A stretch of 64,000 nucleotides of DNA. Origin: Pseudodesulfovibrio sp. JC047 (GTDB taxonomy: Bacteria; Desulfobacterota; Desulfovibrionia; Desulfovibrionales; Desulfovibrionaceae). The DNA is taken from positions 1 to 64,000 of the forward strand of contig NZ_WUEH01000002.1 of NCBI RefSeq assembly GCF_010468615.1. Reading direction: 5' to 3'. This document shows positions 11,137 to 12,818 of this stretch, piece after piece (positions within the stretch are counted from its first letter, which is position 1; each line of letters begins with the position of its first letter). A program made the position numbers and the translations under genes. A model generated the notes under the pieces. That model worked only from the letters and a program-made list of their open reading frames with translations. It was not told the origin of the DNA and searched no databases.

Positions 11137-12108
11137 ATGGAACTCGACATCTCGTGGCCCGTTCTCTGGAACGGGCTTTTTTGGCCTCTCATCAGACTGA
11201 CCTTTTTCATTTCAGTCGGCCTGCTTGTGGGCAATCTCATCGAATCATTGAAATGGACCAGATATGCGGCCAAGCTCGCTGCTCCCCTGGCACGTCGGGC
11301 ACGATTGCGCGATGTTTCGGCTGCCAGCTTCACCATGGCCTTTTTCTCCGGGGTAACGGCCAATACCATGCTCTCGGAAGCCCATGAAAAAGGAGAAATA
11401 TCCGACCGGGAATTGGTGCTGTCCAACCTGTTCAACTCCCTGCCGACCTATTTTCTCCATTTGCCAACCCTTTTCTTCATCGCCGCGCCCTTTATCGGCT
11501 CAGCCGCCACGGTGTACGTAGCACTCACTGCCCTGGCCGCAATCATACGAACCATGGGGATCGTCTTTTCCGGCAAATTCCTGCTCCCTCCAATCGAGGA
11601 AGGCTGTCTTCCGTGTCGATTGGATGAAATGAAAGCGAAACAGGACACGAGTTCGGCCCTCCACAAAACCTGGGCCAGATTCAAAAAACGGCTACCAAAA
11701 GTCCTCTATCTCACCTGCCCGATCTACACCCTCTTCTTTGTACTGAAACAATTCGGCATGTTTGCCTGGCTTCAGGGATTTCTGTCCGAAGGCTCCTCCT
11801 TTTTCACCTTTCTGCCCCCGGAAGCCTTGGGTATCGTCGCCTTTCACATGGCAGCCGAATTCACTGCCGGACTGGCGGCCGCTGGTGCCATGATCGCTGA
11901 CACCAGCCTCACGCAAACACAGGTTGTCCTGGCCCTGATGCTCGGGAATGTCCTGTCCTCGCCCATGCGCGCATTCCGCCATCAATTCCCGTACTACGCC
12001 GGCATCTTCAAACCACGCATGGCATTCAAACTGATTCTCTGTAATCAGGTCACCCGAGGACTGACAATCGCCCTGGTTGGCACCGTATACGCCCTGATCA
12101 TGGTATAA
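11137..12108 (+). CDS. Nucleoside-recognition (gate-domain) membrane protein
   Basis: 323-residue integral membrane protein with about eight hydrophobic segments. Two copies of the nucleoside-recognition/gate-type repeat are apparent: one around SFTMAFFSGVTANTML (residues 65-130) and one around AFHMAAEFTAGLAAAGAM (about 235-300). Such domains occur in spore maturation proteins SpmA/SpmB and in concentrative nucleoside transporters; the substrate of the bacterial stand-alone forms is unknown. Its ATG abuts the panB stop, so the two are co-transcribed, although no functional link with pantothenate synthesis is established. Confidence 0.75.
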   Translation: MELDISWPVLWNGLFWPLIRLTFFISVGLLVGNLIESLKWTRYAAKLAAPLARRARLRDVSAASFTMAFFSGVTANTMLSEAHEKGEISDRELVLSNLFNSLPTYFLHLPTLFFIAAPFIGSAATVYVALTALAAIIRTMGIVFSGKFLLPPIEEGCLPCRLDEMKAKQDTSSALHKTWARFKKRLPKVLYLTCPIYTLFFVLKQFGMFAWLQGFLSEGSSFFTFLPPEALGIVAFHMAAEFTAGLAAAGAMIADTSLTQTQVVLALMLGNVLSSPMRAFRHQFPYYAGIFKPRMAFKLILCNQVTRGLTIALVGTVYALIMV

Positions 12109-12129
12109 CACCCTCCCCCCTCCTTTCCC

Positions 12130-12162
12130 AAGGCTGCACATACCTTCTTCTTGTGCAGCCTT
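12130..12162 (+). terminator. Hairpin after the panB operon
   Basis: AAGGCTGCACA pairs with TGTGCAGCCTT around an eleven-base loop. No clean T-run follows, so termination may be partial. The stem sequence TGCACA also resembles the repeats just downstream. Confidence 0.55.
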
Positions 12163-12214
12163 GCACACGATGTTGTGCAATTTGTTGCATTTTGCACAAG
12201 TGTTGCGTGTGCAA
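12161..12214. promoter_or_regulatory. Two inverted repeats TTGCACA/TGTGCAA: candidate sigma54 enhancer sites
   Basis: TTGCACA (12161-12167) faces TGTGCAA (12174-12180), and TTGCACA (12192-12198) faces TGTGCAA (12208-12214). The two dyads share identical 7-base arms and lie about 40-95 bases upstream of the -24 element at 12255. This is the usual position for binding of a sigma54 enhancer-binding protein. The activator is not identifiable from the window. Confidence 0.65.
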
Positions 12215-12252
12215 CTTTTTCTTAACATATTGATTTTATGAGTAATCACACT

Positions 12253-12269
12253 TTGGCACGGCTCATGCT
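12253..12269 (+). promoter_or_regulatory. Sigma54 (RpoN) -24/-12 promoter
   Basis: TTGGCACG followed by four bases and ATGCT places GG at 12255-12256 and GC at 12267-12268 with exactly ten bases between, matching the TGGCACG-N4-TTGCW consensus except for one base. Expected start of transcription is about 12280. It faces the short structured region at 12282-12586. Confidence 0.8.
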
Positions 12270-12279
12270 AATAGTCATT

Positions 12280-12586
12280 TCATGATTGATGCAATCACTG
12301 TCACTCTCATCATCCTGACCGTCGCGTTGTTGCGGCGGTCCCTCCTCACCGACCCGGACGCGGACACGCGCGTCCGGGAAGAGGAGAAGCCCGAAAACGG
12401 CATAAAGGCTCTTGTCCCGATTCCCGTCATGGCGAAAAGCCCCCATCCAGCCAGGCGGACTCGAACGAGATAACAGCCATACGCATAGACCATACCTCCT
12501 TGAAACCTTTGTTTCAAACCCCAAAACCCCCTCTCCTCGAGAAACAGACCTCTAACCCCAGAAAGGGCCGCGCAAGCGGCCCTTTC
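12280..12586 (+). ncRNA. Candidate sigma54-dependent small RNA
   Basis: Bounds are inferred: the start from the -12 element and the end from the hairpin at 12561-12586 (GAAAGGGCCGC facing GCGGCCCTTTC). Between them are stems at 12317-12340, 12353-12378 and 12500-12517 (TTGAAAC facing GTTTCAA). The last hairpin has no separate U-run, so the 3' end is uncertain and read-through into the kinase gene at 12819 is possible. Confidence 0.4.
12282..12473 (+). CDS. Possible 63-aa membrane peptide, or part of a structured sigma54-dependent RNA
   Basis: The frame begins two bases after the predicted sigma54 start site, so translation would have to be leaderless; there is no Shine-Dalgarno. The product would have one hydrophobic helix (about residues 3-17) followed by a charged, Pro/Arg-rich tail. 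The region also contains two strong hairpins: 12317-12340 (GACCGTCGC with GCGGCGGTC, one G-U pair) and 12353-12378 (CCCGGACGCG with CGCGTCCGGG). This much structure inside such a short frame is more typical of a small RNA. I recognise no homologue. Either reading, peptide or sRNA, is open. Confidence 0.35.
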   Translation: MIDAITVTLIILTVALLRRSLLTDPDADTRVREEEKPENGIKALVPIPVMAKSPHPARRTRTR

Positions 12587-12818
12587 AAATGGCTGAGCAC
12601 CTCCCGCCTACGGTTGGACCACCCGTCGCCAAACACCATCTTCAGACTGTAATATCCACTGGGCACACTCCGCTGGTTTTCGTTGGCACCGCCTTTCTCC
12701 GTCCCAGACACGGACCTTTCGAACAAAGAACCACGATACACAGGCTGCACCTTGTCACGAAGCTCTCAGGCAGGTATGGTACACACTCTTCACTTTCCAT
12801 TTGCCGCAAGGAGTGAAC

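Follow-up and report, generated by a model that had tools for sequence, protein, structure and literature searches.

An RNA of about 310 nt encoded in the window (the whole stretch of DNA analysed here, 64,000 nucleotides, positions 1-64000 of contig C2 in the Pseudodesulfovibrio genome G000) is, at a probability of roughly 0.6, a sigma54-transcribed RNA with a ZraSR-like activator that acts both as a leaderless mRNA and as an Hfq-free anti-Shine-Dalgarno (anti-SD) regulatory RNA. It is probably a short RNA switched on under cell-envelope stress in a single genus of sulfate reducers, and it seems to serve two purposes, since it carries copies of an anti-SD motif and also encodes a tiny membrane protein. 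Our confidence is moderate for the dual function and low for the anti-SD mechanism. Comparison of related genomes brings out the promoter, the upstream activating sequence (UAS), the frame, the stems, the enrichment of CCUCC and a signature shared with a zraP operon.

In the mechanism proposed, a ZraSR-like two-component system would bind an array of TTGCACA/TGTGCAA sites and activate sigma54 RNA polymerase, which would then make the transcript of roughly 310 nt. As an mRNA, the transcript would start at the AUG or within two bases of it and yield a protein of 62-68 aa with a single short N-terminal membrane helix, a basic tail and a conserved Pro-His. As a regulator, it would fold into two covarying hairpins and expose CCUCC motifs, which would pair with Shine-Dalgarno (SD) sequences and repress mRNAs without Hfq. 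Since the encoded frame does not depend on an SD sequence, translation and anti-SD action could go on in the same RNA.

The original prediction, made from this DNA alone, had offered a sigma54-dependent small RNA or a leaderless small membrane protein as alternatives. Each drew support from the comparison, but they are not exclusive, and we favour both on one transcript. The ZraSR-like activator, the anti-SD motifs and the parallel transcripts in other genera are additions of the present analysis. Neither had been recognised there as a known type. In the database searches, Rfam gave no match above the gathering threshold in the window and the protein gave none in Pfam, NCBIfam, PHROG or the PDB sequences.

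Locus and sample

The DNA at 12100-12620 was matched in 30 of the 36 Pseudodesulfovibrio genomes, the own genome counted, and in none of 24 genomes of other families (E <= 0.001 in both cases); the match in G014 reached only E 8.5e-4. The alignments consist of 29 genomes, with G035 (L004) omitted as near-identical to G024. The row for G015 is L027, a stem-poor tandem copy whose promoter was the first and was taken, and the pairing counts given below are slightly lowered because of this row.

The neighbourhood differs from genome to genome. For the 30 loci, a permease is nearby in 21 and a kinase in 16, and neither is found in 8, one of which (L034) starts at a contig end. A reading of the locus as part of a permease or kinase unit was ruled out, as the neighbours vary and the terminator precedes the kinase gene. 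On the 3' side of the terminator, the sequence CTTGTCA...GGTATGGT at 12755-12785 recurs in several relatives and has the look of a sigma70-type promoter that would serve the downstream kinase gene.

Sigma54 promoter and half-site array

The -24/-12 element TTGGCAC-N5-ATGCT lies at 12253-12269 on the forward strand and contains the GG-N10-GC core. It had been called near-consensus, and it is nearly invariant over the 29 aligned genomes: the regular expression TGG[CT]AC-N5-NTGC is found at the locus in 28 of them, and L017 is one base off. Transcription of the locus is predicted from this element to be sigma54-dependent. Upstream, the two identical-arm dyads were confirmed, dyad 1 with TTGCACA at 12161-12167 and TGTGCAA at 12174-12180, and dyad 2 with the same arms at 12192-12198 and 12208-12214, but they are not isolated; both belong to a longer enhancer-like array (the UAS) of TGCACA/TGTGCA half-sites at 12135-12215, to which no strand is assigned. 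By eye, the array is present in the aligned relatives with half-site spacing that differs between genomes, and in L034 just 34 bases are available upstream. The expectation that such dyads serve a bacterial enhancer-binding protein (bEBP) is supported comparatively by the conservation of these bEBP-like upstream sites and by the similar arrays that precede other sigma54 promoters.

A sigma54 transcript usually starts about 12 nt beyond the C of the -12 element. In all 29 aligned genomes the distance from this C to the A of the ATG is 12-14 nt (in L023, an earlier ATG at 22 was disregarded and the aligned ATG is at 27), and therefore a leader of 0-2 nt is predicted in 29 of 29. In the window the putative start falls at 12280-12282 on the forward strand, at or just before the AUG, and no SD sequence was seen by eye between start and ATG.

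The pattern TTGCACA-N45-75-TGGCAY-N6-TGCW was found in 35 of the 36 genus genomes, with 1-3 matches per genome against a single match in total for the reversed control; G013, which is 81% complete, gave no match. A second pattern, TTGTGCA-N60-90, was found in 30 of the 36 with no match in its reversed control, and one more match of it in the own genome is at G000:C6:11759.

Candidate activator

The zraP operon of the own genome (L130:1104-5801, on G000:C6) was found by the second pattern and not by the first. Here a similar half-site array is followed by a zraP-like gene, a DUF4405 gene, a histidine kinase gene and the gene of a sigma54 response regulator. In this the unit resembles the ZraSR regulon (zraP, zraS, zraR), and it differs in that the NCBIfam scores of the Pseudodesulfovibrio proteins lie below the equivalog cut-offs. 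The zraP-like gene has a PF13801 match and an NCBIfam ZraP match at E 2e-9, under the cut-off; the regulator and the kinase are likewise below those of ZraR and ZraS, with AtoC and AtoS scoring slightly higher. Four genomes were read around zraP, and the array was seen in the promoter region in each, with a ZraP-like frame listed in three of the four.

A second unit behind similar sites and a sigma54 promoter in the own genome is a gene for a small membrane protein (L110; G000:C6, site 89634-89709), the end of which looks SHOCT-like by eye. Likewise, L111-L114, L116-L118, L122-L124 and L126 carry a SHOCT-like small membrane protein, several of them near gltX- or plsX-like genes. Pfam was run on the L126 protein only and the other loci were judged by eye; the relative in G029 gave a SHOCT match at E 6e-4, which is below the cut-off. 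Neither a small RNA nor a SHOCT-like mini-protein is known to us from the ZraSR regulon.

Because similar dyads precede the zraP operon and the SHOCT-like gene, a ZraSR-like system is the likely activator. The link to ZraR rests on these shared motifs, by which ZraR would bind the array and the signal would be envelope or metal stress. The same RNA might be activated by a bEBP other than the ZraR-like regulator, which we consider unlikely. The own genome does hold 32 sigma54-activator matches, 30 of them strong, and a bEBP gene at L097 (G000:C2:155165), divergent from a gene that by eye is multiheme-cytochrome-like, is separated from it by a stretch with TGTGCA-like sites and a sigma54 promoter; against this stand the array upstream of zraP in all four genomes examined there and the recurrence of ZraP-like genes behind the signature in other genera.

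The 63-amino-acid frame

The putatively leaderless open reading frame at 12282-12473 (forward strand) encodes 63 residues: a hydrophobic N-terminal segment, two arginines and a tail in which a Pro-His is conserved. The frame (62-68 aa) is open in all 29 aligned genomes. Every indel as far as alignment column 208, near codon 62, is a multiple of three, and only the last few codons vary in length. No genome has an in-frame stop within the first 62 codons, but stops interrupt the other two frames in 27 and 22 of the 29 genomes. The N-terminus is hydrophobic throughout (best 15-residue mean hydropathy 1.8-2.7) with Arg-Arg next to it, and in the tail the Pro is found in 28 genomes and the His after it in 24. 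The comparison supports a near-leaderless small membrane protein as the encoded product, and the frame is expected to be translated.

A protein profile of 21 members (alignment A1, a hand-picked subset of 21 rows) matches 26 of 247 order genomes, all within the genus (1 of 51 genera), and the search did not find the protein in the 217 sampled order genomes outside the genus. Over the 29 genomes pN/pS is 0.83; it is 0.52 over codons 2-12 and 0.85 in the part past hairpin 2. A value of 0.83 would not by itself prove a protein, and therefore the case for protein selection consists of the integrity of the frame and one paralog pair described below.

The short hydrophobic N-terminal segment followed by Arg-Arg, together with a structured RNA, would also suit a membrane peptide resembling type I toxins, with its translation restrained by the RNA structure. 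We regard this as very improbable. An antisense partner, which is a criterion for a type I toxin, was not noticed in an unsystematic look; moreover, the hydrophilic tail is conserved, the promoter signature is common to zraP, and Pfam, NCBIfam and PHROG gave no match.

RNA structure and covariation

The RNA of the window has a minimum free energy of -119.8 kcal/mol, compared with -80.1 +/- 4.3 kcal/mol for shuffled sequences (z = -9.2), and none of 100 shuffles was as low. The four hairpins of the original prediction are all present, all on the forward strand. Hairpins 1 (12317-12340) and 2 (12353-12378) lie within the open reading frame, and 6 of 8 and 6 of 10 of their pairs, respectively, are changed on both sides among the relatives, with 95.7% and 96.6% of the cells paired. 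The terminator hairpin (12561-12586) has 5 of 10 pairs changed on both sides and 97.9% of the cells paired. The small hairpin in the 3' UTR (12500-12517), examined in the alignment by eye and in the fold, is only partly kept in relatives. Apart from this hairpin, the promoter, dyads and stems, whose lack of conservation in close relatives was to count against the prediction, are conserved among the aligned genomes, and the compensatory changes by which it was to be checked were found in hairpins 1, 2 and the terminator.

Taken together, these three helices have 17 of 28 pairs changed on both sides, compared with 6.8 +/- 1.5 after shuffling (reached in 0 of 500) and 4-8 in slid controls. The proportion of paired cells is 96.8% versus 91.0% shuffled. 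Additional pair types stand out less: there are 33 versus 29.5, a number reached in 3 of 500 shuffles. By parsimony, with GU excluded, there were at least 39 changes from one Watson-Crick pair to another, counted on a tree that was built from the non-helix columns and is still a tree of the same RNA.

The covariation also extends to the encoded residues. In hairpin 1, residues 13 and 20 face each other and covary as pairing requires: with Thr/Ile at residue 13, residue 20 is Ser in 15 rows and Pro in none, and with Ala/Val/Gly it is Ser in 4 and Pro in 9, in counts that ignore descent and omit one Met/Thr row. Synonymous codons vary more at two other positions than at Leu21 and Leu22, which are described below. 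Codon 6 is Thr in all 29 genomes and is written in three ways; alignment codon 50 is Pro in 28 of 29 and is written in four. A further hairpin at the 5' terminus, over the start codon, was seen in some rows only, and it is not claimed because its pairings differ and its energies are weak.

At E <= 0.01, a covariance model of promoter and stems matched 41 of 199 order genomes, which represent 11 of 43 genera. Strong matches (E < 1e-30) are those of 22 genomes, all within the genus; matches outside it are weak, the best at 8e-6, and five were read by eye. In G175 and G154 the match stands before a long frame whose start resembles a signal peptide, and in G122 before a ZraP-like frame; G161 lacks a convincing promoter, and G203 has an RNA-like transcript. 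All of these judgements were made by eye, and the weak matches were not counted as homologues.

Natural copies that separate frame and stems

Evolution has separated the two layers in a few natural copies: two genomes have a copy with the frame alone, and a third has one with only the stems. In G003 and G015 there is a second tandem copy with promoter and frame in which the stems are missing by eye (the tandem duplicates are L028 and L027, respectively, with the stemless copy upstream). Between these two genomes, the stemless copy has pS 0.61, pN 0.25 and a ratio of 0.41, compared with pS 0.17, pN 0.14 and a ratio of 0.80 for the copy that bears the stems. Low synonymous change is therefore confined, in this one genome pair, to the copy with stems. 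In G032, on the other hand, a remote copy (covariance model E 5e-15) has the promoter, both hairpins with changed pairs, the ACCTCC element and the terminator, and by eye its frame stops after three codons. The separation of the two layers is seen in these few cases, one genome pair and one copy; since copies with each layer alone exist, each function can be tested separately.

Five genus genomes in which the DNA of the 63-aa frame was not matched (G009, G016, G020, G023 and G031) have a transcript that has diverged but is again preceded by half-sites and a sigma54 promoter; it sits behind the permease in all five loci. It contains a frame of 85-89 aa with a VRTSP motif in G016, G020 and G023; in G009 and G031 there is no ATG frame at this place and CACCTCCTCT is kept before a hairpin.

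It is from such cases that a purely regulatory RNA, with the open frame a by-product of RNA conservation, could be argued. The pS of the main copy and the overall pN/pS agree with it, as do the two frameless transcripts at the same locus in G009 and G031. Nevertheless, we hold it to be decidedly unlikely, given the lack of in-frame stops in 29 genomes with the other frames so often stopped, the triplet indels, the constant distance from promoter to ATG, and the fall of pN/pS to 0.41 in the paralog pair once the stems are lost.

Anti-Shine-Dalgarno motifs, Hfq and targets

The CCUCC motif occurs at several places along the RNA, all on the forward strand. The anti-SD-like linker CCCUCCUCA at 12340-12348 covers the codons of Leu21 and Leu22, each of which is CTC in 28 of 29 genomes. 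The predicted unpaired probability of its CCUCC is 0.69 in the window and ranges from 0.01 to 1.0 among genomes, so that accessibility at the linker is not reliable. In the 3' UTR, alignment A2 has a conserved element, GCATAGACCATACCTCCTT at 12483-12501, which includes ACCUCCUU, a likeness of the 16S rRNA tail; its CCUCC has an unpaired probability of 0.94 in the window. A C-rich region at 12525-12559 ends in ACCUCUAACCCC, with CCTCC in most relatives and CCTCTCC in the window.

Over the 29 transcripts, CCTCC was counted 86 times compared with 33.6 +/- 5.5 in dinucleotide shuffles, and CCTCCT 63 times compared with 5.8. The mean predicted unpaired probability of CCUCC is 0.71, versus 0.44 over whole transcripts. 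The copies per genome range from one to five, with two in the window and one each in L020, L022 and L030. Several exposed CCUCC motifs, as expected of an anti-SD sRNA, are therefore present. Hfq (PF17209) was matched in none of the 36 genus genomes and in 5 of 14 control genomes, E. coli included.

If the RNA were simply a short mRNA that encodes a small membrane protein, with hairpins and C-rich tail that do no more than tune translation or stability, this would account for the open frame with its triplet indels and for the tandem paralogs that retain the protein without stems. It would not account for the G032 copy, which keeps both stems with a dead frame, for the conserved 3' UTR elements and the CCTCC enrichment, or for the same signature preceding transcripts without the 63-aa protein in other genera, and we find it rather unlikely.

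If the dual-function reading is followed, the CCUCC motifs would pair with target mRNAs. The pattern TGAGGAGGG-N2-10-ATG gave 109 matches in the 36 genomes (0-6 each) versus 61 in the reversed control, an excess that is expected of any SD-like word, and no conserved mRNA target was found by it in these genomes. One near-identical match in 10 genomes was rejected as a target, as it falls within a long coding frame, by eye metF, in the three read. In the own genome, L148 (G000:C1:214106-214123) is a 10-base linker match at the ribosome site of what by eye is clpB; among the matches listed, it is seen in this genome only. Should the anti-SD reading be true, the RNA would provide a working model of Hfq-free post-transcriptional stress control in sulfate reducers, and of a leaderless start that lets a translated RNA repress SD-led translation.

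Comparison with known systems

Dual-function sRNAs are known, SgrS among them. Each ingredient of the present RNA is already known. What was not found in the literature searched is their combination, with sigma54, covarying stems interleaved into a leaderless frame, anti-SD motifs and natural single-layer copies. The search of article texts also returned no publication on a small RNA in Pseudodesulfovibrio.

A close parallel is NfeR1, a member of the alpha-r14 'cuckoo' sRNAs of alpha-proteobacteria (here rhizobia), which is an Hfq-independent anti-SD RNA that blocks mRNA translation (PMC10746234). Several unpaired CCUCC motifs are common to both RNAs, as would be Hfq-independence and a link to stress. 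NfeR1 is driven by an RpoD-type promoter and has three hairpins, each of which carries CCUCCUCCC where it is unpaired, with no encoded protein described in the part available (PMC10746234), whereas the Pseudodesulfovibrio RNA has a sigma54 promoter, motifs in the linker and the 3' UTR, and an embedded leaderless frame. In most rows its ORF hairpin loops lack the motif, so that three hairpins bearing CCUCCUCCC are not found; it is not filed as a member, and we claim no sequence homology to alpha-r14/NfeR1.

In D. vulgaris, the available text lists sigma54-dependent ncRNAs as targets of DVU0653, DVU0679, DVU1419 and DVU2359, with DVU1419 labelled 'envelope stress response, posttranscriptional regulation' (PMC4641369, PMC3333781). 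The bacterial group, the sigma54 promoter and, as predicted for our RNA, bEBP control are common to these ncRNAs and ours, in a comparison by description only. Pos19 of Rhodobacter sphaeroides, a 219 nt stress-regulon transcript that is both translated and regulatory, resembles the proposed RNA as a stress-regulon coding sRNA; it differs in its dependence on RpoE and Hfq, and the text available describes no leaderless start (PMC5036791).

Transcripts behind the signature in other genera

A stricter pattern, applied across the family, matched 40 of 149 genomes, which belong to 13 of 44 genera; its reversed control matched nowhere. Among the matches listed are 37 such places in other genera, 29 of which have loci and were read. 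By eye, a gene for a ZraP-like or related secreted protein follows in 8 of the 29 loci, and in 21 there is no evident gene (L155-L163, L167, L168, L170-L176 and L178-L180 are those that look non-coding); in this sorting by eye, which also gives the 21 their non-coding status, L169 and L177 are less certain. The transcripts of other genera are dissimilar and do not contain the 63-aa protein. In the first 260 nt of the 21 gene-less transcripts, CCTCC was counted 34 times compared with 13.0 +/- 3.4 expected, and it is present in 16 of them. For the 8 ZraP-like or related genes the count is 1 compared with 4.2 expected.

These transcripts suggest a quick turnover of sRNAs on a conserved regulator. 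A bolder reading, speculative and in our view improbable, is that the stress RNA mimics the anti-SD tail of 16S rRNA through ACCUCCUU and covers many SD sites while its own leaderless AUG escapes; it would then be one form of a ZraR-driven, family-wide device that is reinvented in each genus and bears a protein in Pseudodesulfovibrio. In L172, L174 and L175, ATACCTCCTC lies within a predicted hairpin loop.
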